Below, in pieces: positions 23,061 through 42,876 of a stretch of DNA of 43,059 nucleotides. This stretch comes from Oscillospiraceae bacterium (GTDB lineage Bacteria > Bacillota > Clostridia > Oscillospirales > Ruminococcaceae): contig JALFVE010000018.1 in the NCBI GenBank assembly GCA_022787085.1, positions 1-43,059 on the forward strand. The letters are read 5' to 3'. The notes beneath the pieces are model-generated. The model was not told where the DNA came from, did no database searches, and saw nothing but the letters and a program-made list of their open reading frames with translations. Each line of letters starts with the position of its first letter. Position 1 is the stretch's first letter. The position numbers and the translations under genes are program-made.

Positions 23061-25999
<2,939 letters not shown>

Positions 26000-29248: not shown

Positions 29249-30604
29249 TTATTTTCGGGCGAAAATGAAATCTACGTCATGCTCGTTTTTAAGTTCTTTA
29301 CCGTTATTTTCCGTATCCGCTTTCCATCTCAGCTCATTAAATTCCTCTCTTGAAAGATTGCTGTTGTCAATAAGAGTGTTGAGAAAATCTTCGCAGAAAT
29401 CAGCATTTTTATCATCCACCCAGGGGCTTGAAATAGTATATTCCAGGTCGTCTATAAACGGATTGCTGCGGATATACTCCGTATCATCAATTATTACCGG
29501 GAAATTTTTTATTCCGTTTTCCTTTGAGAACTTATCTGAATTTAAGAAGGAACTGTTCGACAAGGTGTCTTTTTTTCCGAAAAGCTTTATTACAGCATTG
29601 GGAAAGCTTTCATAAAAGAATTTGCCGCGGTATTTGTTAAGCAGAACGGCAGCCTCCGCCCTGATAAAGGGCTCGCTGTCAATGATAGGAAATACAATTT
29701 CCTTCAGGAGCTTGTCGGTTTTGCCTGTATCGGTCTGATTGTCGGATATTGACGCTGCATAAACTGCAATAGACAGATCGTTTGTCTTATATCCGATTTT
29801 GCCCAGAAATGAAAAAAAGGATGTCATTCTTTTTATATTCGCATTATTAAAGCTTGTATAAATACAATATATGACAATATCAGCATAGCCTGTCTGCTTC
29901 AGCATTTCACACAGGGCTTCATTCTCGCTGCTGAATTCGGATCGGTTCATATATCTTCGGCAGAGCTTTCTGAGTACCCCTGCCGAATAATATGAGCCGG
30001 TACTGCTATAGCATCGGTAGCTTCGCAGAATAACTCTCAGACCATATATATTCACCGCAGCGTCAGCCGCTTCGTAAATGCCGTCTTTTATCCAGCCGAA
30101 AAAATGGTCGAGGGTTATGGGCAGAGACACGATATCGTCTCCCATATAGAAGTCGGGCTTTGTCCGTCTCATAATTATTTCGGCTTCCCTGAAGCGTTTG
30201 TGATAAACCGCAAAATCGATCAGCTCCGAAGTGCAGTCCGGAAAATTGCAGAAAACATACTGAGGAAGTTTGTTCAGGAAATCACAGCTGTCATCACAGA
30301 AAATCAGTCTTTCCATAATAAGCTGATGCATGGAAACTATTGAAGTGTTATAATATAACATCGTGTTCTCTTTATCTGAAAGCTCGGGAAAGGGGACTTC
30401 CGTGTCTGCGATCATGGTGAAAATGCAGCTGAGCATTCCCTGGGGCTTATCATAACTATAATCATATCCCGTCAGGGTATGAACAAGCCTGTCTATCGCT
30501 CTTTGATCTTTTTTTTCAAGCTGTCTGACCATTCTGCGGCAGCGCTTAAAATCCTTTTCACTAATGCAGTTGTAATTCAGTTCGGTGGGGGACTGATCGT
30601 TCAT
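29249..30604 (-). CDS. Helical repeat protein of unknown family (last gene of MoxR-VWA operon)
   Basis: A 451-residue soluble protein that I do not recognise. It is largely alpha-helical, with no signal peptide or membrane segment. The stretch EPFIRAEAAVLLNKY (about 315-330) looks like a HEAT-type helix pair, and several other regions could be degenerate helical repeats. The C-terminal about 80 residues are acidic and carry two similar segments, DDTEYIRSNPFIDD and DDLEYTISSPWVDD, a short internal duplication that may be a partner-binding tail. Its ATG overlaps the stop of the preceding gene (ATGA), so it is translationally coupled to the MoxR-VWA operon. It is probably a scaffold or substrate adaptor for those ATPase components (inference). 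Confidence 0.75.
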   Translation of the reverse strand: MNDQSPTELNYNCISEKDFKRCRRMVRQLEKKDQRAIDRLVHTLTGYDYSYDKPQGMLSCIFTMIADTEVPFPELSDKENTMLYYNTSIVSMHQLIMERLIFCDDSCDFLNKLPQYVFCNFPDCTSELIDFAVYHKRFREAEIIMRRTKPDFYMGDDIVSLPITLDHFFGWIKDGIYEAADAAVNIYGLRVILRSYRCYSSTGSYYSAGVLRKLCRRYMNRSEFSSENEALCEMLKQTGYADIVIYCIYTSFNNANIKRMTSFFSFLGKIGYKTNDLSIAVYAASISDNQTDTGKTDKLLKEIVFPIIDSEPFIRAEAAVLLNKYRGKFFYESFPNAVIKLFGKKDTLSNSSFLNSDKFSKENGIKNFPVIIDDTEYIRSNPFIDDLEYTISSPWVDDKNADFCEDFLNTLIDNSNLSREEFNELRWKADTENNGKELKNEHDVDFIFARK

Positions 30605-31998
30605 TTATATGCCTTCCTTTCGGCTGCAAACTTCGAGATGTGCGAGAGAGTTGTTAGACAGCCCTTTTTTACGCACAGCTCGGCAAGTTCGCTGATAATA
30701 TCATCGTCAAGCTCCTCAAGACTGTTTAACAGACAGAGCACAGCGGAGTCGTTTCGTTCGAGTATTTCGTTAACCACGGGGATTTTTTCCAAATCTCCCT
30801 TAATGGCAGTTTTTATTGAACCGAATGTCTTTTTCAGAGTATTGAGATTTTTGTGGAGAATATTGCTGAAAACGCCGTCATTTGAAAATTCATCGAGAAT
30901 GCTTTCGTCAAACACTACCACTATCGGCAGCAGCGAAAATGCTCTCTCAAAGCTATACGGTGGATGACCGCTGCTGAGAAGTTCACTGCTGTACGGCAGA
31001 TAGAGCTTTTCGGGGGTGACAGCCCCAAGCGCAGCGATAACAGGCTCCTGCTCCATTATCATGTCCCAGTTGGAGAAATCCGAAAATCTCAGCAGCTTTT
31101 CAACGTCCTTTGAACAAAGCTTGTAGCCCTTTGCAGCCAGCTCACGAAAAAAAACAGCCGCCATTCGGATGATCTTCTTTTCCGCTTGACTTTGGCATCC
31201 TTTTTTATTCCTTATAGATCCAAGAAGGTAATAATAACCGGAGTTGTCTGATATTATCTTCGTGAGATAGCCGATTATTTCGTATTTTTCAAACAGCCTG
31301 CAGAATTCCGCTTTTTTATCATTGGCGCAGGCGTATTTGGGGATAAGGATTTCAAACAGATGATCCATGTAATAGGTCAGGGAAAAATTATCAGTCAGAA
31401 AGCTGCCCGGAGAAAAAAATTTCATCTCTCCGATCAACTTATCTGCGCCGATGATATCAGCAATTTTCAAGATGTCCTTCCTGCGTTCCTTTCTTATCAG
31501 ATAGAAAATTACAGTGCTGTCTTTAAGAAGTAAATCATCAATTCCGATATCTATAAGGATGGAAAGGACGATATCAAAATATCGCTTGTTTTCGGAAAAT
31601 ACCGCCGCACGCCAGAGCTTCAGATAAGGCCAGAAACACATATAGCCCGGCATTTCCTTTTCCTTGCTGCAGCAAGCCTTCAGGCTGTTCAGAAGATAAT
31701 ATGACGCCTTGCTTTCCTTCAGCATTTCTTTAAATATCAGGTCGGATAATTCACCTAATTGCAGCGGACAGATCAAACCGGGCGGAAGAAAATCGCAGTC
31801 TAAGACATCCTCGTTTACAGCTATGGCATGACGAAGCAGGATCGTAAATGCAGGCAGCATTTTGGAATCAATTGCTGTTTGGATATCGCTTATGAAATCC
31901 TCCTTGCTGCCTGCTCTTACATGAGCGTCAAAGGCTTTGAAAAAATCCATCGGAAGTTTTTTCAGATCGGCATAGTAAAATGTATTAAAAAAGCTCAT
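30601..31998 (-). CDS. Large helical protein of unknown family in MoxR-VWA operon
   Basis: A 465-residue cytosolic protein with no recognised domain. The composition and spacing of hydrophobic residues suggest all-alpha repeats, possibly ankyrin- or HEAT-like: for example MLPAFTILLRHAIA, KRYFDIVLSILIDIGIDDLL and ERRKDILKIADIIGADKLI, each about 30-40 residues apart. It sits between the VWA gene (9-bp gap) and the next helical gene (4-bp overlap), so its product is made in step with the MoxR/VWA pair. No catalytic motif is visible. It is not an obvious paralog of the three-gene family at 34763-38833, although the overall length is similar. Confidence 0.75.
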   Translation of the reverse strand: MSFFNTFYYADLKKLPMDFFKAFDAHVRAGSKEDFISDIQTAIDSKMLPAFTILLRHAIAVNEDVLDCDFLPPGLICPLQLGELSDLIFKEMLKESKASYYLLNSLKACCSKEKEMPGYMCFWPYLKLWRAAVFSENKRYFDIVLSILIDIGIDDLLLKDSTVIFYLIRKERRKDILKIADIIGADKLIGEMKFFSPGSFLTDNFSLTYYMDHLFEILIPKYACANDKKAEFCRLFEKYEIIGYLTKIISDNSGYYYLLGSIRNKKGCQSQAEKKIIRMAAVFFRELAAKGYKLCSKDVEKLLRFSDFSNWDMIMEQEPVIAALGAVTPEKLYLPYSSELLSSGHPPYSFERAFSLLPIVVVFDESILDEFSNDGVFSNILHKNLNTLKKTFGSIKTAIKGDLEKIPVVNEILERNDSAVLCLLNSLEELDDDIISELAELCVKKGCLTTLSHISKFAAERKAYK

Positions 31999-32007
31999 AA
32001 ATTAATC

Positions 32008-33408
32008 TCAGTCCTCATATCTGACCAGCTCCACCCAATCGGGAACATAATCAAGGTTAAAATACGAGAAGGGCGAATCGTCTGAATTTGTGGGAACAAA
32101 AAATGTGGTGCGGTAAGAGGGCTTTTTATCGGGAAATGCCCCGCAGGCATCGGAGAAGAAAAACAGTCCCTTGAGCTTTTTGCCTCGGTTTTTCCTTGAG
32201 AAATTATCGGCATATTCAAAGACGCATCTGAAATCGGTGCCCCCCCAGCCGCCGGGATTGTAATTCGTCACAAGGCTGTCTGCGTCCTTCCTTGAGCGGA
32301 TCTTCTTTTCCATGGTTATCTCGGTGTCAAAGGTCACAACATTTATATTCACCGAGCTTTTGATATTCATCTGGGTAAAGAGTGTGTATATCTGGCGAAG
32401 AAAGTTTGACGCAGTCTCTCCGCCGCAGGAGCCTGAGACATCTATTGCGATAATGATATCGCTGGCACAGCAAAGCTCTCTTGTTTCGCAAAGCTCAACG
32501 ATCGGCGTGTTGTCCAGATTATCGAGCCCCCAGTGATACATCATTATGTCAAGAGTGTCGGGATCCTCGGCAACTACCTCTTTGAGTGCAAATCTTTTCA
32601 GATATTCAATGTAGGAAAAGCGGCTGAATCTGTCGGGAGGCTTCGGAGTGAAAAACATATTTCCCGCCTGACTGCCATAGCTTTGGCTTGCTGCAGAGTG
32701 CTGCGCAGCAGTCAGCAGCCTTGTCCATTCCTCCTCATCCTTTTTCAGGGATTCCTTTAGCTCAGAGATGGAGACTGAGATCTGAGCGGAGCCGTCCTCC
32801 TGTTCGTCCGATGGCTGTGACTGAGGAGAATCCTGTATCGAGGGAGGGGGGGTGTTATTTTTTTCATCATTATCACGCTTGGTGTACCAGAGGCTGTGAT
32901 CGTCCTCCTTGAGCTTTTGGACAACCGAGAAAAGACGGCTGCGGAAGGCTGTGCTTTTCTCAGCTTTGTCATAAAACTCGGAGGTCGTCCTGCTGCCGCA
33001 GTCATCCAGAAGCTTGTTTATTTCCGCTAAAATGTTCATGGGAGCGCTGATGGCATTAGCCTCATGCATCATGCTGAAAACCGCCATATCTGCCGCTGCT
33101 TCAAAGAGCTTGTCATTCTGAGTGGTCATGGAGGGGTGGAGCAGGAGAGAATGAAGCACGGAATGGATAATGGTATTTATGAGCTTCTGCTTGTTTTTGG
33201 AATAAATCCCGATCACCCATTTGGGATTATAATAGAGAAAGCTGTAATCTGAGCACATGGAGGGGATCAGGTCGGAAGCCTCCGCTCTGAGCGAGTAAAT
33301 GGGCTTCATCATGTAGGGGAAATCTGCCGCTGCCTTTCTTGTGGTATGGGAGATAATATCCGCCGAGAGCTCCAGCTCCTCCGCCGTAAACTGTGTGGGA
33401 TCCTTCAT
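32008..33408 (-). CDS. VWA protein with degenerate metallopeptidase-like N-terminus (DUF2201-like)
   Basis: Partner of the MoxR ATPase. The N-terminal half resembles the zincin-like domain found with VWA-like (DUF2201) proteins, but the HExxH motif reads HSVLH (H82, H86, with H91 five residues on): both histidines remain and the catalytic glutamate is serine. A low-complexity linker rich in S, P, Q and E follows (about 185-220). The C-terminal VWA domain has an intact metal site: DVSGS at 323-327 and GGTDF at 389-393, with FFFSDACG later. It likely binds proteins through Mg2+. I chose ATG 33408 (466 residues), 22 bp after the MoxR stop and behind AAAGGA; a TTG at 33447 would overlap MoxR. Confidence 0.85.
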   Translation of the reverse strand: MKDPTQFTAEELELSADIISHTTRKAAADFPYMMKPIYSLRAEASDLIPSMCSDYSFLYYNPKWVIGIYSKNKQKLINTIIHSVLHSLLLHPSMTTQNDKLFEAAADMAVFSMMHEANAISAPMNILAEINKLLDDCGSRTTSEFYDKAEKSTAFRSRLFSVVQKLKEDDHSLWYTKRDNDEKNNTPPPSIQDSPQSQPSDEQEDGSAQISVSISELKESLKKDEEEWTRLLTAAQHSAASQSYGSQAGNMFFTPKPPDRFSRFSYIEYLKRFALKEVVAEDPDTLDIMMYHWGLDNLDNTPIVELCETRELCCASDIIIAIDVSGSCGGETASNFLRQIYTLFTQMNIKSSVNINVVTFDTEITMEKKIRSRKDADSLVTNYNPGGWGGTDFRCVFEYADNFSRKNRGKKLKGLFFFSDACGAFPDKKPSYRTTFFVPTNSDDSPFSYFNLDYVPDWVELVRYED

Positions 33409-33430
33409 AAGATCGACCGTCCTTTCAAAG

Positions 33431-34669
33431 TTATGAAGCCGAGGCAACCTTCTTCATTTTCTTCTTTATCTGGCTGTCGGCAGTGGTGATCTCGTCAAGA
33501 TACTTGCTGAAACGGGAATTGCCCATTATAACGATCGCCTTGACGATATCGCTGTCGGAAAGGATCCCGCTCATAAATATCTCGATCTCACCGTTCTTGC
33601 CGTAAAGCTTCTCCACAAAATCCAGGATGTTGTTCATGCTCTCGTTAACGCCTGTGTTATTGCCCGAAACTGCAGTCTTGTGGAGCTTTCTCTTCATACA
33701 TTCGATAAGCATGAAGCGGACGCTGATGTTGCAGCCTGTGAGCTTTTTGATGATGCTCTTGTCAGCCTTGCCATCAATAATAAGGTCGATCTCCTCCTCG
33801 GAAATAGTATCCTTCACAAGGCGGTAATAGTTGTAAAAATCATCTGCCTCGGAGGGAACGGAGATGTACTGCTCAACAAGCTCTGCGGAAATGGGGAAAT
33901 TGTTCTTCTCATAGGAGTCGATGGTGATGGAAAGCTCCTCCCAGCCTCTCGGAGTAACAACGCTGCTTGTGCTTTCATCAAAGGTGTAAAGCGCCTGCTC
34001 GTTTGTGGTGATATATGCCGTAACAATGGGGTTAAGTGAACGCTTTGCGGCATAATCGAGCCAAGCCTTGCTGTCGGGAACAACATTGATAACTCTGAGA
34101 CGGTCACGGGTCACAGCGTCGAACTCCTTAACGCTCTTGTTGTACTCGGGGGGATTTCCCGCCATGATAAGTATCCAGCCCTCAGGGATCATGCTCTGAC
34201 CCAGAGTCTTGTTCTGGAAGAGCTGGAGCATGGGAGCGGAAAGGCTTTCGGATGCGCAGTTTACCTCGTCGATAAAAAGAATACCGTTGGGATTACCTGT
34301 TCTTTCGATCTCATCTCTTACCGAAGCAACTATTTCGCTGGCGGTATATTCCGTAACGGAAACGGGCTCGCCGCCGTAGGTCTTTGTAACGAGCTTGGGG
34401 AGACCAAGAGCGCTCTGTCTTGTGTGGTGAGTGATGGAGTAGGAAACAAAGCCCAGCCCCAGCTTTTCGGCTGTCTGTCTGGGGATATCGGTCTTTCCGA
34501 TGCCTGCAGGGCCGATGAGCATTACGGGACGCTGCCTGTTAACGGGAATGATAAATTCACCCGAGGGTGCCTTTTCCAGATAAGAGATGCAGATGTTTTC
34601 GAGCTCCTTTGCAGCCTGTGCGATAGAGATGGAGTGTGCTGCCGAAGCGATGATCTTTTCCTTTGCCAT
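33431..34669 (-). CDS. MoxR-family AAA+ ATPase
   Basis: A 412-residue AAA+ chaperone-like ATPase. Walker A is GPAGIGKT (53-60), Walker B is ILFIDEVN (130-137), and the sensor-1 region reads MAGNPPEYNKSVKEFDAVTRDRLRVINV, with the arginine-rich turn typical of MoxR. A helical C-terminal lid and an extra about 100 residues follow, ending in a basic tail (KKKMKKVASAS). MoxR proteins act with VWA partners to remodel or activate proteins, as in RavA-ViaA. Here the VWA gene follows directly. It is the first gene of an operon whose promoter overlaps a 28-bp perfect palindrome. ATG follows CGGAGG. Confidence 0.93.
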   Translation of the reverse strand: MAKEKIIASAAHSISIAQAAKELENICISYLEKAPSGEFIIPVNRQRPVMLIGPAGIGKTDIPRQTAEKLGLGFVSYSITHHTRQSALGLPKLVTKTYGGEPVSVTEYTASEIVASVRDEIERTGNPNGILFIDEVNCASESLSAPMLQLFQNKTLGQSMIPEGWILIMAGNPPEYNKSVKEFDAVTRDRLRVINVVPDSKAWLDYAAKRSLNPIVTAYITTNEQALYTFDESTSSVVTPRGWEELSITIDSYEKNNFPISAELVEQYISVPSEADDFYNYYRLVKDTISEEEIDLIIDGKADKSIIKKLTGCNISVRFMLIECMKRKLHKTAVSGNNTGVNESMNNILDFVEKLYGKNGEIEIFMSGILSDSDIVKAIVIMGNSRFSKYLDEITTADSQIKKKMKKVASAS

Positions 34670-34721
34670 AATAAATACCTCCGTAAAATTATTCTGAGTT
34701 CTTTCTCATTGATATTATTGT

Positions 34722-34765
34722 ATCATATGATTTTTTATAGTTTTCTTCAAATTTGAAGAAAACTA
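34722..34765 (-). promoter_or_regulatory. MoxR operon promoter overlapped by a perfect 28-bp palindrome
   Basis: On the minus strand TTGAAG (34745-34750), 17-bp spacer, TATGAT (34722-34727). Positions 34738-34765 form an uninterrupted perfect palindrome with core TTCAAATTTGAA, which contains the -35 box and the stop codon of the upstream paralog gene. No T run follows, so it is not a terminator. The same core and geometry recur at 40605-40630, ahead of the AAA+ operon. Confidence 0.8.
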
Positions 34766-36100
34766 TTTTCCGTTTCTGATGATATACTTGTTGAGGATAT
34801 TGAGAGCCTCTGTCCTTTTTTCCGAGCTTGCCTTGCCGATAAGCTCGCTGAGCTGGAGATTATTGAAGCAGTGCTGTTCAAGCATGGTGCTGAGAAGGAG
34901 AGGTATCTGAGTGATAATGTCCGCAGCGCAGCCACGGCTCAGATCCTCATCGGTGATGAATTTAATTCCGCTGCTCAGCAGCCTGCGGAAAAACTGAGGA
35001 ATGTGCTTTTTGCTCTGGACGATGAAATTGTTGATCAAAAACATATCCGCATTGAGAGCATTGCTTCTGATATCAAAGCTGAACCTGTCCTTGCCGATAA
35101 GCTCCAGGCGATCGAATAATTCATTTCGGATATTGATGTTTGAGAATGACGATATAACATGGAAGGGACGGAAGGTGAGCCGTTCGCCCAGCACGGGGGT
35201 GAAATAATCAATGATTATTTCACGGCTGGCAGCCGAATAGGAGAGGGGATTCATATTCAGCTGCATAATAATATCGGTAATATCTATGAAATAAAGCCCC
35301 AGCCTGCTCATTGCAGATAGCTCCGCCTTGGCGTTATCCGATAAAGTCACATGGGTGAAAAGCCTTCTTTTCAGCAAAGAGAAAGAGTCATTTGAGACTT
35401 CAATATTATTCATAAATTCCGAAACTGCCGCAGGAACATTTTCAGCGCTTCGGATCTCGGGAATGTATCTGATGCAGGTATCGTAAATATACTCCACAAA
35501 AGGTCTCCTGAGATTTGCAAAACTAAATTCCATGGTGTTGTTTTTATTTATGAAAACACCGGCTATCTGATCTGCTGAGAAGTCTTCCATGAGAATATCC
35601 ATGATGTCGGTCATGCCGTTATCGAAAAGGTAGCAGAGAAGCTCAGGCTGGATGAAGGAGGAAATATCAGAGATCATTTCCTTGCAGTATTCAAGGCAGT
35701 CAACTCGCCGCATGACCGCTGCCGCAGTAATTATATCCTTGAAATCATTGGCGGGATACATTCCGATTTTGTGGAGACCGTCCTTAATTGCCTTTTCCAG
35801 AAGCGTCAGGGCGGCGGGATCGTTTTTTGTAATTGCGTTCTGCACTGTTGTGAGAAGAATATTATTTGTATCATAGCTAAAATACTCATCGAGAAATTCC
35901 TGAGGAAAACGTGCTGCGTAGGCAGTCATAATATTTGAAATTGAGATGAATGAGATGGAGTCAAAGCCGATATTGGCTCCGAAGAAGCCCGAGAGGTTCG
36001 AGCAGAAGTCCTTCAGAAGCTCGGAATATTCCTTGGCAGAGCAGCTGTTGATGCAGTCGGCTGCTTTGATAGAAAGCAGTCGGTTGTTCAGGTTAGTCAT
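34763..36100 (-). CDS. Paralog 1 of a three-gene unknown family
   Basis: A 445-residue soluble, mostly helical protein with no recognised family. It is clearly homologous to the two genes upstream. Shared landmarks, in order, are YDTCIRYIPEIRSAENVPAA (about 215-235), SAMSRLGL, LTFRPF, DRFSFDIRSNAL, FFRRLLSSGIKFITDEDLS, CAADIITQIPLLLSTML and the terminal EALNILNKYI. The last part and the mid-region VDCLEYCKEMISD ... LLCYLFDNGMTDIMDILM have the spacing of degenerate ankyrin-like helix pairs. The start overlaps the previous stop by 4 bases. Its own TAG lies inside the palindromic operator. It possibly forms hetero-oligomers with its paralogs or acts as a recognition subunit; this is inference. 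Confidence 0.8.
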   Translation of the reverse strand: MTNLNNRLLSIKAADCINSCSAKEYSELLKDFCSNLSGFFGANIGFDSISFISISNIMTAYAARFPQEFLDEYFSYDTNNILLTTVQNAITKNDPAALTLLEKAIKDGLHKIGMYPANDFKDIITAAAVMRRVDCLEYCKEMISDISSFIQPELLCYLFDNGMTDIMDILMEDFSADQIAGVFINKNNTMEFSFANLRRPFVEYIYDTCIRYIPEIRSAENVPAAVSEFMNNIEVSNDSFSLLKRRLFTHVTLSDNAKAELSAMSRLGLYFIDITDIIMQLNMNPLSYSAASREIIIDYFTPVLGERLTFRPFHVISSFSNINIRNELFDRLELIGKDRFSFDIRSNALNADMFLINNFIVQSKKHIPQFFRRLLSSGIKFITDEDLSRGCAADIITQIPLLLSTMLEQHCFNNLQLSELIGKASSEKRTEALNILNKYIIRNGK

Positions 36101-37467
36101 GGCTTGAAAGCTCCTTTCAATGACTGATTTTGGTTATCGGGAAGGGAAGACGGAGCATAAAGCTCTTTGTGCGCAAGAATATATTTATTGATGACATTCA
36201 GCGCATTTGTCCTTTTATTCTGAGCTGCAATGAAGATCAGGTCGGTGAGCTGAGCGCGGCTGAAATCACATTGGCGGAGCAGATCACCGAGCAGCTTGGG
36301 ATACATTGTGAGAATTTCGGCGAGTCCGCTTTTTTTCAGATCCTCGTCTGTAATGAAGCCGCAGCCGTATTTTAAAAGCCTGTGGCAAAAGGGCAGTGAC
36401 AATCTTCTGTTGTGATTTGTCAGTGCATTTAAAATTAAATCGTCCTGCAAAATCGCCTTTGAGGAAAGATCGAAGCATATCCTGTCGGTGCCGATCAGAT
36501 TCATAATGTCGATGACGCTTTTTTTCAGACTTTCGGTATTGATATAGGCAGAAAAATAAAAAAGTCTGACCGTAAGCTTTTGATCAAAAACGGGGAAATA
36601 ATGCTCCTTCAGCTTTTCAGGGAAATCCTTGTCGGGATATTCCGGCAGTTCTAATGCCAGCTTGTAAACTATATCGGTAATATCCTTTAAATGCAGTCCC
36701 AGCCGCTTCATTGAGGCAAGCTTTGAAATGGTCCTGTCCGAAAAGCAGCCGTAACTGAGGCAGCCTAACATCGAAAGGAACTTGTCACCTAAGAACTCCG
36801 AAACAGCATCGGGGATATTGCTGCTTGCCCTGATACGGGGGATATATCTCACGCAGATATCATAGCAGATATCAATATAATTATGGGCTGATGGGATGTT
36901 TTGACCGAGAGAGAAGGAGCTTATGTCAGGGGTCAGAAAGGCTTTTATCTCGTCCTCCGTCCTGCCTGTGAGGATATTATCCAGGATATCCGTAAGCTCA
37001 TTTTCCTGAAGATAAAAGAGCGTATCGGTGAATATCAGCTCGGAAAAATTATTTGTATTATCTTTGATGTACTTAATGCATTGAGCATTGTTTGAAAAGA
37101 TCACCATGGATACAAGCCATTTTTTTTCGTAGTCCACCAGTTTATTGATATCAAGCTTTTTCAGTATGGTGAGAGCGGCGGGGGAATTGTCTGAAATTGC
37201 GTTTGCTGCTGCGCTGTAAACGGAATTTTTCAGAATTGCGGGAATGGTTTTTTCTTCAAATTCCGCAGGATAGCCTGAGGCGAATGCTGTCAGCAGCTTA
37301 ATGGCATTGTCGGTCAGCGCAGCGTCAATATTTGAAAAGCCGCAGAAGGAATATTGTTCAAATATCCTGATGTATTCATCCAGAAGTCTTGAAAAATCCT
37401 CCGATGAACCACATTTTATACAGCTTGATGTTTCGGAAATAAGAACAATGCCGCTGGTATCATCCAT
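36097..37467 (-). CDS. Paralog 2 of a three-gene unknown family
   Basis: A 456-residue homolog of its two neighbours. Matching landmarks are IKCGSSEDFSRLL near the start (paralog 3 has IKCGTAEDFSRLL), YDICVRYIPRIRASSNIPDAVSEFL, ASMKRLGLHLKDITDIV, LTVRLFYF, DRICFDLSSKAI, CHRLLKYGCGFITDEDLKKS, AEILTMYPKLLGDLL and NALNVINKYI. It has a C-terminal extension of about 20 polar residues absent from paralog 1. No catalytic motif or membrane segment is visible. It overlaps the upstream paralog by 8 bases and the downstream one by 4, so the three are made together. Function is unknown. Confidence 0.8.
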   Translation of the reverse strand: MDDTSGIVLISETSSCIKCGSSEDFSRLLDEYIRIFEQYSFCGFSNIDAALTDNAIKLLTAFASGYPAEFEEKTIPAILKNSVYSAAANAISDNSPAALTILKKLDINKLVDYEKKWLVSMVIFSNNAQCIKYIKDNTNNFSELIFTDTLFYLQENELTDILDNILTGRTEDEIKAFLTPDISSFSLGQNIPSAHNYIDICYDICVRYIPRIRASSNIPDAVSEFLGDKFLSMLGCLSYGCFSDRTISKLASMKRLGLHLKDITDIVYKLALELPEYPDKDFPEKLKEHYFPVFDQKLTVRLFYFSAYINTESLKKSVIDIMNLIGTDRICFDLSSKAILQDDLILNALTNHNRRLSLPFCHRLLKYGCGFITDEDLKKSGLAEILTMYPKLLGDLLRQCDFSRAQLTDLIFIAAQNKRTNALNVINKYILAHKELYAPSSLPDNQNQSLKGAFKP

Positions 37468-38833
37468 TTCGATGTCCCCCTTTCAAAGCGTCATGGATGC
37501 CGTATCCGCCTGAAAGCGAATATTTGTTGAGAATATTCAGAGATTCTACCCTTTTTGATCTTACGGCTGCGGCAATAAGCTCTCCGAACTGAGCCGTGCT
37601 GAAAACTCTTCTGTCAAGCATTGTTTCCAGCAGAATGGGGAAATCTGTGATGACCTCAGCAGCACAGCCGCAGCTCATATCCTCGTCAAGGATAAAGCCG
37701 ATACCGCTGTTTATCAGCCTGCGGAAAAGTGATCTGCAGCGCTCCATATTTTCGGAAACCATATCAATTGAATCCGATTGGGCGCTCAGAGCCTTGCTTG
37801 TCATATCGAAGCTTATCCGCTCTTTTCCTAGGGAATTCAGGAGGAATATCAGCTTTTTTGGGGGCAGATCATGGATGGTGTAAAAGGAGATCGGGTCTGT
37901 CAGGCTGAATAATCTCAGTGTCAGCTTTTCGCTCAGTATGGGCTTAATGTACTGATCTATTATTTTGGTGAGATTTTCCTCGTCCGAATTTCTGAACACT
38001 TCTGCCAGATATGAAACAAGAACGCTGATATTTGACATGCGCAGCCCCAGCCGTTCCATGGCGGAAAGCTCGTTAAGCTGACTTGCGGAAAAGGAAAAAT
38101 CACGTTGGCTGAGGGTCTGGTAAAGAAAGGAGAAATCAGCTTCCTCCATAAATTCGGAAACTGCAAGGGACTTGTTTTCTGCGTTTCTGATATCGGGGAT
38201 GAAGCTTACGCAGGTGTCATAAAAACACTCGGTAACAGTGCGTTTGCAGGTATAATCAAATTCAATGCTGTTGTTTATATCGTTGGAATATTTGAAAACA
38301 GAAATAATAATCTCCTTTGAGTAATTTTTCATAAACATATCAATGATATCATTAAGCCCATTGTCATACAGATAATATAAAACCTTGTTGGGCAGCACAG
38401 AGATCTGATTTGAACTGCTCATGCTTTTAAGAAGCAGCTCAAGACAATCCCTGCGGTCGTTTATTGCAGCTGTTAAAATCAGTTCATTGTATTCATAGGG
38501 CGATAACCATGATAGATCCATTTTTTTCAGCAGCAGAATATCTGCGGGGTCGGAAGCTGTCATTTTTCTCAGTGCAGCGCAGACAAGGACTATCTGGAAA
38601 TATTCGGAAAATTCTTCCCTGCTGAAGCTTTTGGGAAAACGGGAAGCATAGGTGCAGATAAATTCAACTGAGCTGATTAATAATGAAGAAGTATAATCGT
38701 ACGGTGTATAATTGTGAAACAGGTTGGAATTATCAATGATATCGGGCAGCAGCCGGGAAAAATCCTCGGCTGTGCCGCATTTTATCAGTTTCTCCTCTTT
38801 TGCGGAGAGAATAATACATTCTGTGGAGAGCAA
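37460..38833 (-). CDS. Paralog 3 of a three-gene unknown family
   Basis: A 457-residue helical protein, the first of the three tandem paralogs behind the AAA+ ATPase. Landmarks are LIKCGTAEDFSRLL, the ankyrin-like NDRRDCLELLLKSM and VLYYLYDNGLNDIIDMFM, YDTCVSFIPDIRNAENKSLA, SAMERLGL, LTLRLFSL, ERISFDMTSKAL, FRRLINSGIGFILDEDMS, CAAEVITDFPILLETML and SLNILNKYSL. The start is TTG at 38833, about 10 bases after AAAGG; no ATG occurs in frame for roughly 90 codons, and the N-terminus aligns with paralog 2, which supports the TTG. It lies 14 bp after the AAA+ gene in the same operon. Confidence 0.8.
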   Translation of the reverse strand: MLSTECIILSAKEEKLIKCGTAEDFSRLLPDIIDNSNLFHNYTPYDYTSSLLISSVEFICTYASRFPKSFSREEFSEYFQIVLVCAALRKMTASDPADILLLKKMDLSWLSPYEYNELILTAAINDRRDCLELLLKSMSSSNQISVLPNKVLYYLYDNGLNDIIDMFMKNYSKEIIISVFKYSNDINNSIEFDYTCKRTVTECFYDTCVSFIPDIRNAENKSLAVSEFMEEADFSFLYQTLSQRDFSFSASQLNELSAMERLGLRMSNISVLVSYLAEVFRNSDEENLTKIIDQYIKPILSEKLTLRLFSLTDPISFYTIHDLPPKKLIFLLNSLGKERISFDMTSKALSAQSDSIDMVSENMERCRSLFRRLINSGIGFILDEDMSCGCAAEVITDFPILLETMLDRRVFSTAQFGELIAAAVRSKRVESLNILNKYSLSGGYGIHDALKGGHRNG

Positions 38834-38847
38834 TTTGTTTCATCCTT

Positions 38848-40518
38848 TCAGAATCCGATGGAGATCATGCTTTCCTTTGCCTCAAGCTCGGAGGAGATAA
38901 TGTCCGCAGAGGCTTCGGAGATATCCTCAAGGTCGAGGACGGTGAGCATTTTATCGGTCATTTTTTTGCATCCTGCGATCCTTACAGCGTGCTTCTGCTT
39001 GGCATTCACAAAGAGATTTCTCGCTTCTCTTCCGTTGCCGAACTCATCTCCTCTGAGCTTTCTGAGTCTGATAAAAAAGCTTCTGAGAACATCGCTGCAA
39101 TTATCGGGGATCTTGAAATTATCGTTTTCTGCGATCTTTCCGAATATCCTGATAAGATCGTCGTCACAGTATTCCTCAAATCTGACCACAAAACTTATTC
39201 TTGATTTCATACCCGGATTTGAGGAAAGAAATTCAGTCATCTTGTTTTCATAGCCTGCGAAAATGCAGAATACATTTCCACGGAAATTCTCCATATTCTG
39301 AGTAATGCAGGTAACGGCTTCCTTGTCGAAGATCGTTGCGTTTTCCTCAGACAGGGTGTAGATCTCATCGAAGAAGATCACTCCTCCGCCGTTTTCAGCC
39401 ATTTCAGAAAAGAGAGAATCGACCTTTGTAGCCGTCTGACCCACATACTGACCAACGATATCCGACTTGCGGCATTCCTTGAAGCAGGAGGAGCTTTTGA
39501 TAAGCTTGAGCTGCATCAGCATATCCGCAAAGCGCCTTGCAAGAGTGGTCTTGGCAGTACCCGGAGGGCCCGCAAAAACCATGCTGCAGCCGTTGAAGCT
39601 GTCAGAAAGACCTCTTTCAAATCTGAGCTTATCCAGCATAATTGATTTGATGATACCGTTCAGCTTGTCCGTTTCGTTTTCAAGACCGATAAGGGAATTG
39701 CCCTTGATCTCGGAGGATGCGGCGGGAGTTGAGAAGAAGCTGTCTGTGCCCTTGAAATCCTTTTTGGTAAGCTCTCTGCCCGAGGGATCGCTTTTTAAAT
39801 GATTTGTGATAACAAAACGAGCGGCGGCGGACATTATATATTCATCGCAGCTGTAGGACTGTCTGACAAGGGAGCGGATCTCCTTCTGAACATTTTCTGC
39901 GCTGAAATTCTTCTCCCAGAAATAGGCGTTAATAATGCTGATTGCCTCCTCGGGACTGTCCAAACCGATAAAAACGGTGCTGCAGCAGTCCATAGCGGAG
40001 CTGAGAGCAGGGGAGTCGGGGGAGACGGCAGGAGTGCAGATGAAAAATTCCACTCTTCTGTCAAGCAGCGAATCTGCTGTCAGACCGATCTCGGAGGGAG
40101 CTGAGCAGATGTGCACCAGAGGATTGTTTTCGCAGGAAAGAAGCTCTGCCGTTTCGGGATTGTTCATCTCAGCGGACATATTGATAGCGGCGGCAACATT
40201 ACTTTCTGCCTTCTTTTTTGTCAGACCTTCCAGATTGATAAGCTCGCCAATGCTGTCAAGCTTGTCGGCAATGCAGAAGTAAATTGCCATAACGGCGATA
40301 TATGCGTCGTTGATGTGATTTGCGGAGATGAAATATTTGTTGGTGTACTCGCAGAAATCATCATCGTCAATTTCCTCAAGCTTTGCAAGAAGCTCGGAAA
40401 GGGAATTGAAGCGGCTTCTGGAGCAGATAGTCTCGAAGATATCATTGCTGTCATAGTCGGAGGGGCGCAGGTATTTCTTATCACCCAGGGTGTGCTTTTC
40501 GATATTGCTGATGCTCAT
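38848..40518 (-). CDS. CbxX/CfxQ-like AAA+ ATPase with novel N-terminal half
   Basis: A 556-residue protein. The C-terminal half is a complete AAA+ module of the CbxX/CfxQ (Rubisco-activase-like, SpoVK-like) class: Walker A GPPGTAKT (317-324), a pore-loop-like GQYVGQT (356-362), Walker B VIFFDEIY (380-387), sensor-1 FAGYENKMTEFL, arginine-finger region NPGMKSRI and sensor-2-like NGREARNLF. The first about 270 residues are not recognised; SAAARFVITNH (230-240) resembles the lid of a second, degenerate AAA unit, as in tandem CbxX proteins. It heads the operon with the three paralogs. Such ATPases thread or remodel protein substrates. ATG 40518 follows AAGGAGAG. Confidence 0.88.
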   Translation of the reverse strand: MSISNIEKHTLGDKKYLRPSDYDSNDIFETICSRSRFNSLSELLAKLEEIDDDDFCEYTNKYFISANHINDAYIAVMAIYFCIADKLDSIGELINLEGLTKKKAESNVAAAINMSAEMNNPETAELLSCENNPLVHICSAPSEIGLTADSLLDRRVEFFICTPAVSPDSPALSSAMDCCSTVFIGLDSPEEAISIINAYFWEKNFSAENVQKEIRSLVRQSYSCDEYIMSAAARFVITNHLKSDPSGRELTKKDFKGTDSFFSTPAASSEIKGNSLIGLENETDKLNGIIKSIMLDKLRFERGLSDSFNGCSMVFAGPPGTAKTTLARRFADMLMQLKLIKSSSCFKECRKSDIVGQYVGQTATKVDSLFSEMAENGGGVIFFDEIYTLSEENATIFDKEAVTCITQNMENFRGNVFCIFAGYENKMTEFLSSNPGMKSRISFVVRFEEYCDDDLIRIFGKIAENDNFKIPDNCSDVLRSFFIRLRKLRGDEFGNGREARNLFVNAKQKHAVRIAGCKKMTDKMLTVLDLEDISEASADIISSELEAKESMISIGF

Positions 40519-40588
40519 AAAAATCTCTCCTTAAAAAAATGGTTGTGGAATTTGTAACGGGCTGCTGCCCTTGCTTTACTAACATCAT

Positions 40589-40630
40589 AGCATAGGGAAA
40601 AATGCTTTTTTCTTCAAATTTGAAAAAAAG
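40589..40630 (-). promoter_or_regulatory. AAA+ operon promoter with the shared palindrome
   Basis: On the minus strand TTGAAG (40612-40617), 17-bp spacer, TATGCT (40589-40594). The -35 lies in TTCAAATTTGAA (40613-40624), extended to a near-palindrome at 40605-40630. The palindrome centre is at the same distance from the -35 and -10 boxes as in the MoxR promoter. The two sites share TTCAAATTTGAAGAAAA on the transcribed side. Confidence 0.78.
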
Positions 40631-40635
40631 TCTGA

Positions 40636-40664
40636 TTGACAAAATTCGATTATAATGGTAAAAT
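40636..40664 (+). promoter_or_regulatory. Promoter of the WYL regulator
   Basis: TTGACA (40636-40641), 17-bp spacer, TAAAAT (40659-40664), about 34 bp before the ATG. The palindrome at 40605-40630 ends just upstream of this -35, so one site could control both directions. Confidence 0.65.
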
Positions 40665-40698
40665 ATAATAAAATATTGAAGGGAGAGTCAGACGCATT

Positions 40699-41982
40699 AT
40701 GGAAAAAATGGAAAAGCAGGATAAGAAGGAAAACGTAAAGAAGGAACCCAAGCATCCCATTAAGATCACAAGGGATGATGTTATCAATTATATTGTGGAA
40801 AACAGTTCTGAGGGACATATGCTCTCGAGGAATGAAATATATTCAGCCATGTATAAGATCTGTACCGATTCTCCCATTGTGGATCATTTCTCCGACCATA
40901 CTGTCCTTTCAGCCATGAGCAGGACGCTGGATCCCGAAGAGGGAGTATTGGGAATGCAGCTGACATATGGGCTTATGCTCAAAAAGAAGGATTTCCCCCA
41001 GACAGGCAAGAACGAGAGGACCAGCGAGATAAAGCAGTATTATGCACAGGGACCGCTCACCGATTCGCAGGTAAGGATACTTCGGGATGCGGTCATCGTA
41101 TATCCCTTTGCGGAGGAGAAGGAAACGGGAAAAATCGTTAATGCCCTCAATAAGCTCACCCCCGTATATAACAGGGAGACATATGATCTTTCAAAGATAA
41201 ATGCCGTGAAATATACCGGGGAATATTATAGGAATATTGAAGAGATACATAAGGCGTTATCTCCGAAGCAGTACGGCACGGGACCTGAAAAGTCCAGAAA
41301 GAGCGATCTGAAGCAGAATGATTATGAGGAAAAGATGCAGAAAAAGCCTGTTACCCAGATCAGGTTCAGATACTGCGAATACAATGAAAAAAAGGAGCTT
41401 ATTCCCAAGAAGCTCAAATATCCCAATCAGGGTGAGACTGATCTTGAGATCCGCAGGGTTAATCCCGTAAAGCTCATGTGGGCAAACGGCTATTACTACC
41501 TTGTGGGCTTTTACAAAAATAAAAAGGGCGAGGAATATTATATAAATTACCGTGTGGACAGAATGAAGGACGTGGAATGTACTTCGGATCCTGCCGAGCT
41601 GCCCGACCCTCAGAAATTCGATCTGTATAAATATAAATTCTCGAATCCCGTAATGTACAGCGGAAGCAAGCACAGCGTGCGGCTTCTCTGCGAAAAATGG
41701 CTGATGAATAATATTATTGATACCTTTGGCTTTGATGTTATCGTAAATCAGACCGAGGATGATAAGCTGCTTGTGGATCTTCTGCAGGTATCCTATGATG
41801 GAGTAATGATGTGGGCTCTGGAGTATTGGAGCGGCTGCGAGATACTTGAGCCCCCCGAGCTTCGGAGCAAAATGCAGGAGGCAGCTGAATCACTTGGCAG
41901 TATGTATAAAAGAGCGCCTTCAGCCTATGTGAAGCGCCACCGGAATCCCGCAGCCGACAGATCTGTTGTGATCACAGAATAA
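40699..41982 (+). CDS. WYL-domain transcriptional regulator
   Basis: A 427-residue DNA-binding regulator. An N-terminal winged-helix-like region (about 20-110, ITRDDVINYIVENSSEGHMLSRNEIYSAM) is followed by a helical linker and a WYL domain at about 165-295. The domain shows VNPVKLMWANGYYYLVGFYKNKKGEEYYINYRVDRMKDV in conserved order (WYL appears as YYL at 266-268). The last about 110 residues fit a WCX extension. WYL proteins sense nucleotide or nucleic-acid ligands and often repress bacterial defence operons (BrxR, CapW). It is divergent from the AAA+ operon, shares the palindrome region with it and is the obvious candidate regulator of both operons. An unusually charged N-terminus (KMEKQDKKENVKKEPK) precedes the first domain. 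Confidence 0.87.
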   Translation: MEKMEKQDKKENVKKEPKHPIKITRDDVINYIVENSSEGHMLSRNEIYSAMYKICTDSPIVDHFSDHTVLSAMSRTLDPEEGVLGMQLTYGLMLKKKDFPQTGKNERTSEIKQYYAQGPLTDSQVRILRDAVIVYPFAEEKETGKIVNALNKLTPVYNRETYDLSKINAVKYTGEYYRNIEEIHKALSPKQYGTGPEKSRKSDLKQNDYEEKMQKKPVTQIRFRYCEYNEKKELIPKKLKYPNQGETDLEIRRVNPVKLMWANGYYYLVGFYKNKKGEEYYINYRVDRMKDVECTSDPAELPDPQKFDLYKYKFSNPVMYSGSKHSVRLLCEKWLMNNIIDTFGFDVIVNQTEDDKLLVDLLQVSYDGVMMWALEYWSGCEILEPPELRSKMQEAAESLGSMYKRAPSAYVKRHRNPAADRSVVITE

Positions 41983-41986
41983 AAAA

Positions 41987-42014
41987 TCCCCCGCAGATTC
42001 ATTTCTGCGGGGGA
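41987..42014 (-). terminator. Terminator between WYL gene and macrodomain gene
   Basis: Perfect 11-bp arms TCCCCCGCAGA (41987-41997) and TCTGCGGGGGA (42004-42014). On the minus strand a T run (ATTTTTTAT) follows, so it serves the macrodomain gene best; for the plus strand the stem is present but the tail is A-rich. Confidence 0.8.
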
Positions 42015-42027
42015 AAAATATCATCTG

Positions 42028-42876
42028 TCACATCAGATTTTTCTTGAAAATATCAAAATTCTTTGTGTCCTTGGGGGAGCAGTAGACTGCAAAAACGACC
42101 TCATCAAAAGCCCCCTTGAATTCGTCAAGCAGCGACGAATAAGCCTTAGCCACCACATTGGGATCGTTTCTGAATGCGCCGCAGCCGAAGGCTCCGAGAA
42201 CCACAGCGTCCGCTCCGTTAGCCGCAGCGACCTCAAGAATATGCCTGCCTCGGCTGATGTGGAGGGAGAGGAGCTCGGAAGCTGAAAGCTTTATCATGGC
42301 TCCGCTGCCGGGATTCATAGCATTATAGGGCTTTTCCCTGAGATTCGGCGCAGCGCAGGTGATAACGTCTGTGCAGAACCATTCATTCTCGGGCAGAAGT
42401 TTGGGAAATGCCGTATCGCTTTTAAAAACAGTGACAGAGGGAGTATAAATGCAGGCGTCGGAGTATCTCACATCTCCCTTTTTTCTGTGAGGCTGATAAT
42501 ACATTCCGAAAAGCTTGTCTGTGTTAATGCAGGGATAGAGCGTGGAGGTCCGGCAAAGCGCCTCCTCCTGAGCGGAACTGCCCTTTGTAACGCCGCCGCC
42601 GGGATTTGTGGCGGAAGCGAAATTCAGAACGGCGAGCTTCTTTCCGGGGAGCTTTTCCGAGAGCCTTTTTGCAGCCTCAAAGGTGCGCTCGGGAGTAACG
42701 CTTATTTTCATATCACAGTTTTTATTGCTGAAAACGGGATGATCGTCGGAAGCGTAAAAAACGGTGCCCTTTTGGGAGCTGCTTACCGATTCCGAAAGTC
42801 GGCTGATTTTTTTGCAAAGCGCCATAGTGTCGTTAAATATTTCAACTCTTTTTTCTCTTGCTTCATCGTAATTCAT
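42028..42876 (-). CDS. PARG-like macrodomain protein (TIGR02452 family)
   Basis: A 282-residue protein of the microbial poly(ADP-ribose) glycohydrolase-like family. The catalytic signature is intact: GGG at 93-95, seven residues, then QEE at 103-105 (NPGGGVTKGSSAQEEALCRTS). The family typically cleaves ADP-ribose from proteins or related conjugates. Other family features are VLNFASATNPGGG, SDACIYTPSVTVFK, VITCAAPNLRE and VVLGAFGCGAFRNDP near the C-terminus. It is convergent with the WYL regulator and separated from it by a terminator, so membership in the neighbouring system is a guess from proximity. The start follows CGGAGGAA. Confidence 0.93.
   Translation of the reverse strand: MNYDEAREKRVEIFNDTMALCKKISRLSESVSSSQKGTVFYASDDHPVFSNKNCDMKISVTPERTFEAAKRLSEKLPGKKLAVLNFASATNPGGGVTKGSSAQEEALCRTSTLYPCINTDKLFGMYYQPHRKKGDVRYSDACIYTPSVTVFKSDTAFPKLLPENEWFCTDVITCAAPNLREKPYNAMNPGSGAMIKLSASELLSLHISRGRHILEVAAANGADAVVLGAFGCGAFRNDPNVVAKAYSSLLDEFKGAFDEVVFAVYCSPKDTKNFDIFKKNLM

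Follow-up and report, generated by a model that had tools for sequence, protein, structure and literature searches.

A two-AAA+ MoxR-VWA locus with a WYL regulator gene in an Oscillospiraceae bacterium: a candidate cousin of bacterial conflict systems

Genes of the locus and their recurrence in five genomes

We analyzed a 43,059-nucleotide stretch of DNA (contig JALFVE010000018.1, positions 1 to 43,059; hereafter the window) from an Oscillospiraceae bacterium, a gut bacterium that carries a rare gene set for two ATP-driven machines. An initial annotation had described two tight minus-strand operons of eight genes in all and a divergent gene for a WYL protein, and all nine genes were found where it had placed them. 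The first operon encodes, in this order, a CbxX-like AAA+ ATPase (38848-40518) and three tandem paralogs, namely paralog 1 (37460-38833; 457 aa, TTG start), paralog 2 (36097-37467; 456 aa) and paralog 3 (34763-36100; 445 aa). At 93 bp from its end begins the second operon, with a MoxR-class AAA+ ATPase (33431-34669; 412 aa), a VWA protein as its candidate co-chaperone (32008-33408) and two large proteins, helB (30601-31998; 465 aa) and, as last gene of the operon, helA (29249-30604; 451 aa). The WYL-WCX transcription regulator (40699-41982; 427 aa) is encoded on the plus strand. From helA to the CbxX-like gene the intergenic distances are -4, +9, -17, +93, -4, -8 and +14 bp, and the single 93-bp spacer divides the minus-strand genes into the two operons. 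The tight spacing first described stands, except that the 17-bp overlap between MoxR and VWA is probably a start-codon artefact: the longer VWA frame, which opens with a TTG, reaches 33447, and in three relatives the open reading frame (ORF) starts at the residue equivalent to window position 33408, which would leave a 22-bp gap.

The family identities proposed for four of the proteins were borne out by Pfam matches above cut-off to AAA and AAA_lid_6 (38848-40518), AAA_5 (33431-34669), DUF2201_N and DUF2201/VWA (32008-33447), and WYL and WCX (40699-41982). In the CbxX-like protein the AAA+ module lies at about residues 274-534, with a P-loop reading GPPGTAKT, and residues 1-270 belong to no known family. 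It shares AAA and AAA_lid_6 with the CbbX/SpoVK/EccA family, but has this N-terminal region of its own and scores far below the cut-offs of the CbbX (TIGR02880, 166.8 against 459.25 bits), SpoVK (TIGR02881, 180 against 422.95 bits) and EccA (TIGR03922, 152.8 against 466.65 bits) models; among solved structures it comes closest to CbbX and EccA1. Curated Pfam cut-offs were passed by none of the five large proteins, in line with the initial annotation, which placed them in no recognised family. PADLOC and NCBIfam gave no match to them up to an E-value of 1, and a PHROG scan gave one weak match, for paralog 3 (E 0.0028).

The VWA protein has intact MIDAS residues. Its N-terminal domain aligns with the metallopeptidase-like DUF2201_N, and the HExxH motif reads HSVLH, with Ser in place of Glu. 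In 13 aligned VWA proteins this Glu is absent from 12 and HxxxHxxxxH is kept in all 13; the domain is probably dead as a protease and may have retained metal binding. The sole protein that keeps the Glu, and with it an intact HExxH, is encoded at another WYL-MoxR-VWA locus (L051 6456-12049, genome G232), in the vicinity of genes for a reverse transcriptase of retron type (PADLOC RT_Ec107-like) and for short proteins, one of which has a weak match to the paralog family. A search for a diversity-generating retroelement at L051 and L052 through direct repeats of at least 40 bases gave one 54-base pair (72%) in L051 and none in L052.

The core of CbxX-like AAA+, MoxR AAA+, DUF2201-type VWA and WYL genes recurs in five genomes of four genera: the window's own; Oscillospiraceae bacterium RGIG9084, of the same genus (G003; L024 and L025); G371 (L048); G235 (L049); and G1114 (L099), which carries the core yet is related to the window genome at class level only. 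The co-occurrence therefore reaches beyond close relatives. All-against-all comparison of the 110 ORFs of these five neighbourhoods returned exactly four families common to all of them (CbxX-like, MoxR, VWA and WYL); the paralog family was found in four, and at least one large protein without Pfam match in each. G003 encodes PARG, WYL, CbxX, two paralogs, MoxR and VWA up to a contig end, with helB and helA on a second contig; the G371 set comprises WYL, a 501-aa protein, CbxX, a single paralog, MoxR and VWA; and the G235 set a 467-aa protein, CbxX, a paralog split over two open frames, MoxR, VWA, the RNA ligase and WYL. The initial annotation had asked whether the genes recur in order elsewhere; they do occur together, and the order differs in G1114 (McrC, a McrB-like AAA_5 protein, a 488-aa protein, WYL, VWA, MoxR, CbxX). 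Identity to the window in G003, G371, G235 and G1114 is 84%, 56%, 62% and 39% for CbxX and 94%, 65%, 69% and 52% for MoxR. Four other MoxR proteins of the same type (from G371, G1114 and two from G235) are 52-69% identical to that of the window. The G003 counterparts of helA and helB are 50% and 52% identical to the window proteins.

Broader searches used genome draws that are samples and give no prevalence figures for whole groups. The VWA query matched 10 of 61 genomes and the paralog 1 query two of the 61, the window included. In 396 genomes sampled from the family, the paralog profile matched six, three of them over short stretches only. The CbxX N-terminal region matched eight of 394 genomes sampled from the order, seven at no more than 23.1 bits and the window alone strongly, in a draw that evidently missed the carriers G003, G371 and G235. 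When the CbxX profile was applied in full length with an E-value limit of 1e-80, the window genome and G1114 were the two matches in 391 genomes sampled from the class. The paralog family is patchy: it was found in 2/20 genomes of the window's genus (1/8 of the more complete ones) and in 1/43 of the genus of G371, in both cases with many genomes incomplete.

A palindrome shared by the two operons

A perfect 22-bp palindrome, TTTTCTTCAAATTTGAAGAAAA, lies at 34741-34762, 71 bp ahead of MoxR, where it overlaps a -35-like TTGAAG (34750-34745) and is the predicted operator of the MoxR operon. A copy with one mismatch lies at 40608-40629 in the divergent CbxX/WYL promoter region, 89 bp from CbxX and 69 bp from WYL. 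These are the only two matches with up to three mismatches in the 43 kb, both in promoter gaps (0.00 expected), and the sole palindromes of at least 10/11 in the 29-43 kb region (0.12 expected from a single-base shuffle). The same palindrome precedes each operon and ties the two together. This link is a new finding, and together with the restriction to four families common to all neighbourhoods it upholds the earlier view that the genes belong together. A sigma70-like promoter toward WYL (TTGACA-17-TAAAAT, 11/12; 40636-40664, plus strand) follows the second copy, in a region whose 24 promoter-like sites are near the shuffle mean of 22.2.

In four whole genomes, that of the window (G000), G003, G371 and G235, the palindrome has four, three, one and three distinct sites, respectively, and the reversed control sequence has no match. 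Seven of these 11 sites lie at genes of the system or the paralog family, with at least one at a system gene in each genome. They comprise three sites in G000 (both window sites and one at C18, just ahead of a family gene), one of the three in G003, the only one in G371 (ahead of MoxR and overlapping the end of a paralog frame) and two of the three in G235 (at the operon start and, at C115, between divergent family genes). Weaker copies also occur: both MoxR genes of G235 are preceded by copies with four mismatches, and MoxR of G003 by a degraded one (8/11). The MoxR/CbxX gap of G1114 contains a perfect palindrome with the same CAAATTTG core and other flanks, and the called CbxX frame starts before it. 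In G003, identical copies of a palindrome variant were also seen near contig ends (L118 9886-9907 and L119 118-139), which may represent a single repeat or an additional site of the regulon; the gene behind one of them is presumably ClpP-like.

The WYL protein matched WYL and WCX at 30.4 and 31 bits (cut-offs 21.8 and 23.9) and has no Pfam match ahead of residue 240, so its winged-helix part is unmatched. It likely reads the palindrome. According to excerpts of the respective reports, CapW binds 19-24 bp palindromes in its own promoter (PMC9122588) and BrxR recognizes inverted repeats whose halves are separated by a 5-bp spacer (PMC9122601), which makes the WYL protein the natural candidate reader. 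It shares with these regulators of phage defence, as far as those excerpts describe them, the WYL and WCX domains and the presence of a promoter palindrome, which here differs from the BrxR sites in having no spacer.

A family of large, fast-changing proteins

The three tandem proteins are indeed paralogs, the other two being 30 and 38% identical to the first. By profile searches they constitute, securely, a new protein family without match in the libraries used, in agreement with the expectation that they would fall into no described family. The initial annotation had set helA and helB apart as two separate helical proteins; they are possible distant members of the same family, and the tests disagree. 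When profiles were iterated over the 244 ORFs in the fetched loci, they recruited the 467-aa protein, then the 501-aa and 436-aa proteins, window helA (1.1e-5), and helB and helA of G003, and one round later window helB. Two later models, of which the rebuilt form of this one gave 1.1e-4 for window helA, 7.3e-4 for G003 helB and 4.0 for window helB, spanned, with E-values scaled to 2500 proteins, 5.5e-5 to 1.1e-4 for window helA, 3.5e-4 to 7.3e-4 for G003 helB, 0.59 to 4.0 for window helB and 0.0011 to 4.6 for G003 helA, the best of 1200 shuffles reaching 0.039. As hhalign gave the paralogs a probability of only 0.4% against helB and 4% against helA, any link of these two proteins to the family has to come from iterated profiles, which differ in outcome with the alignment and the model used.

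A stricter test, in which each group was left out of the model (E-values again scaled to 2500 proteins), retained the 467/501-aa pair (6.6e-12 and 2.2e-6), the 436-aa protein of G235 (1.5e-10), and the C18 gene (0.0017) with its G003 counterpart (0.0005). A C-terminal model built without helA, helB and G1114 placed the 488-aa protein of G1114 first among the non-members in 307 ORFs (0.0004, with the match at its C-terminus), followed by window helB (0.16); the G1114 protein is therefore a likely family member. Copy number varies from three to five in the window to one likely member in G1114. Short matches of 165 aa (G232, L051), 143 aa (G288, L052) and 214 aa (G201, L050) were left out of the family alignment. 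Pfam scans of 16 members matched no family in more than one of them, and a solved-structure search with the family profile gave one match (E 0.035 over 66 positions), which we did not accept. The proteins are probably helical and perhaps form solenoids; hydrophobic periodicity was discarded as proof of helices, because control proteins overlap with the family in this respect.

Between the window and G003 the parts of the system have diverged to very different extents. Nonsynonymous divergence (dN) is 0.033 for MoxR, 0.097 for CbxX, 0.154 for VWA and 0.183 for WYL. Among the large proteins compared (helA, helB and the two paralog pairs with the best match) it reaches 0.37-0.52, or 11 to 16 times the value of MoxR; the paralog pairs may not be strict orthologs, as paralog 1 has no separate counterpart in G003. 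Synonymous divergence (dS) is 0.87-1.03 for MoxR, CbxX and VWA and 1.02 for helB, which provides the cleanest comparison; it is near saturation for helA and the paralogs (1.49-2.62). The LysR and PBP genes beside the C18 gene have dS values of 0.78 and 0.76.

A second group of DUF2201 MoxR-VWA pairs shares DUF2201_N and a VWA protein with the catalytic Glu lost, but an LRR_5 protein replaces the solenoid family, and the fetched stretches show no CbxX-like partner. BspA-type LRR proteins adjoin the pair in four genomes (G011, G043, G008 and G032; in a fifth, G026, the contig is 3.4 kb long). In a multiple alignment, MoxR identity is 36-40% between the two groups and 51-94% and 44-65% within them; only this matrix was used, since seven of the 10 inner branches of the MoxR tree are open. 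One group carrying the solenoid family and the other LRR proteins suggests that the MoxR-VWA core accepts different repeat proteins as partners. In the LRR group, a locus of G043 (L027 372-19564) holds in a row MoxR-LRR-VWA, BRCT domains, a Swt1-like HEPN protein, WYL, an exonuclease and a UvrD/PD-(D/E)XK helicase-nuclease, and in G011 an AbiH/SIR2-like protein (L026 3018-3947; PADLOC ThsA/LmuA-like, E about 1e-5 to 2e-6) adjoins the MoxR-VWA-LRR locus.

Neighbours, possible roles and relation to known systems

Downstream of WYL, a terminator-like hairpin (41987-42014, minus strand) separates it from the convergent gene of a microbial-type PARG with a macrodomain (42028-42876, minus strand). 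We set PARG aside as a component, and it probably lies outside the system, because of this hairpin, its presence in only two of the five loci (window and G003) and its wide distribution in the genus: homologs occur in 17/20 genomes, 12 of the 17 by weaker matches only, and three of the five genomes with strong matches lack the solenoid family. A 784-aa gene of the window (15547-17901), which we take to encode glycogen phosphorylase, matches a 784-aa gene just downstream of helA in G003 (L025 3166-5520); the region around it seems common to both genomes, and about 11 kb separate it from helA in the window. Elsewhere in the window's own genome, the orphan family gene at C18 (L074 4071-10647), directly preceded by a palindrome copy with two mismatches, lies beside TerB (SngA), BrxC/D-like (SngB) and DEAD helicase genes; the SngA/SngB pair we assume to be Shango. 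Carriage by mobile elements was considered and rejected: VWA had no plasmid match, and MoxR matched 33 plasmid records at less than 60% identity. Viral contigs searched with the paralog and CbxX alignments gave no confirmed relative. In phage families, MoxR matches PHROG 1297 (2e-43) and the VWA protein PHROG 1314 (8e-33); the latter, labelled HNH endonuclease, would appear to be a VWA family. Among 80 of 107 viral-contig relatives, MoxR identity is 24-33%, and in phage records only the AAA part of the CbxX-like protein matches (11 records, none covering 80%).

Taken together, these results are best explained, at a probability that we put at about 0.5, by a single remodelling machine, perhaps for defence, in which two AAA+ ATPases and a variable set of recognition proteins are regulated together. 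The WYL protein would control both operons through the palindrome; the MoxR AAA+ ring and its VWA co-chaperone would remodel target proteins, on which the CbxX-class ring, with its own N-terminal region, would act too; and the rapidly diversifying, probably helical proteins would bring the targets in, as a recognition or sensor layer. Joint action of the two ATPases, an adaptor role for the large proteins and a purpose in defence against mobile elements, as opposed to maintenance, are inferences on our part. To one regulated machine we give high weight; a defence role, plausible and unproven, has about even odds. Patchy presence, fast-changing parts, a WYL regulator, McrBC at G1114 and SngA/SngB beside the C18 gene hint at a role in conflict. 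An extended form, in which diversifying solenoid sensors aim two AAA+ unfoldases under one WYL regulator and further sensor genes are dispersed under the same operator (C18, and C115 of G235), seems to us possible and somewhat doubtful.

Several results weigh against the defence machine. Every dN/dS value is below 1, so that the fast change may reflect relaxed constraint, and the leave-group-out test drops helA (0.33) and G003 helB (2.7; best of 1020 member shuffles 0.053). Promoter- and terminator-like signals of their own separate SngA/SngB from the C18 family gene, and only adjacency is thereby shown. As to defence islands nearby, which the initial annotation had proposed to look for, McrBC does adjoin the locus in G1114, but the other four of the five full loci have no recognized defence system among the flanking genes scanned, which cover part of the flanks. 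PADLOC, applied to 10 flank genes of the window and G003, gave only PDC-S48 on a DNA-ligase-like gene (24014-25999; 30.7 bits over the last 70 residues), and, for the RNA ligase in G235 and two genes flanking the locus in G371, either no match or 15-16 bits (Cas12-type); none of these was accepted. No effector domain scored above the Pfam cut-off in the window system. Finally, four of the 11 palindrome sites (G000 C39, G003 C72, G003 C408 and G235 C16) lie at unrelated genes, and no good palindrome is found on the WYL sides of G371 and G235 (best 7/11).

The last two observations would also be compatible with a palindrome that, instead of being an operator, forms a hairpin in RNA or belongs to the generic AT-rich elements, so that the two operons would not form one regulon; the 34741 site moreover scores terminator-like on the plus strand. 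On the transcribed minus strand, however, no T-run follows this site, and the absence of control matches together with at least one site at a system gene in each genome make this account very unlikely. That the operons are unrelated neighbours by chance is barely credible and largely refuted: the 93-bp gap does hold a promoter-like site of its own, and C139 of G235 has MoxR-VWA-WYL without CbxX, though the contig ends there, but the shared palindrome precedes both operons and CbxX, MoxR, VWA and WYL stand together in five genomes, in another order in G1114.

A more serious contender, which we nevertheless consider unlikely, is a chaperone for housekeeping or stress, comparable to RavA-ViaA, NorQ-NorD or CbbQ-CbbO, that matures or repairs one host enzyme, with the large proteins as its adaptors. 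Pairs of this kind are known to have MoxR and a VWA protein with an intact MIDAS at their core (PMC7159879), and CbbX-class AAA+ proteins are reported to repair Rubisco. Rubisco maintenance was rejected because the genome (95.36% complete) has no match to PF00016, the large subunit, in a search whose control matched five of 14 known genomes. Nor could any client enzyme be linked to the system, since only the four core families are common to all five neighbourhoods; furthermore, the system is patchy within the genus, and adaptors of a conserved client are not expected to change so fast. Quite unlikely, in our view, is a conflict system in which the conserved genes sense and regulate and separate, strain-specific genes block or kill. 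McrBC beside the G1114 locus, the RNA_ligase-family gene directly 3' of VWA in G235 (L049 12665-13639) and perhaps PARG beside WYL in the window and G003 could be such effectors, but each candidate adjoins just one or two of the five loci (McrBC one of five), and PARG has the distribution and the intervening hairpin described above.

The machine preferred here resembles systems described by Kaur et al. in 2020 (PMC7159879), in which MoxR and vWA proteins act with a third component; one type adds FtsH as a second AAA+, and one of its variants several unique helical proteins. The window shares with them a MoxR-class AAA+ beside a MIDAS-bearing VWA protein, a second AAA+ and, like that variant with its helical proteins not found elsewhere, a set of large and probably helical ones, but appears to be without their defining third components: neither VMAP, iSTAND, FtsH-type nor beta-propeller components scored above the Pfam or NCBIfam cut-offs (sequence profiles only). 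The second AAA+ is CbxX/SpoVK-class rather than FtsH, the FtsH models scoring no more than 26 bits on it against cut-offs of 600 and more; no effector domain above cut-off is fused to VWA, and a WYL regulator is present. The terms "CbxX" and "CbbX" are absent from the text of that paper. Type III-A CoCoNuT extensions, in the excerpted description (PMC11090510), likewise combine a SpoVK-class AAA+ with VWA proteins in an McrBC context, but the VWA there is TerY-like, and McrBC occurs here only in the G1114 relative and not in the window. In the literature searched, outside which lay most subscription papers and all preprints, we found no description of a CbxX-MoxR-VWA-WYL locus.

Altogether, the locus resembles bacterial conflict systems already known and may be a cousin of them that has not been described before. 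If this holds, the MoxR-vWA group would gain a co-chaperone system in which two AAA+ classes are combined, and with it would come a new fast-evolving protein family without match in the libraries used. In this clade, moreover, the metalloprotease-like domain of the VWA partner has no catalytic Glu. The concrete operator sequence would make its regulation directly testable, and remote family members under the same operator would represent an unusual bacterial way to build a sensor repertoire.

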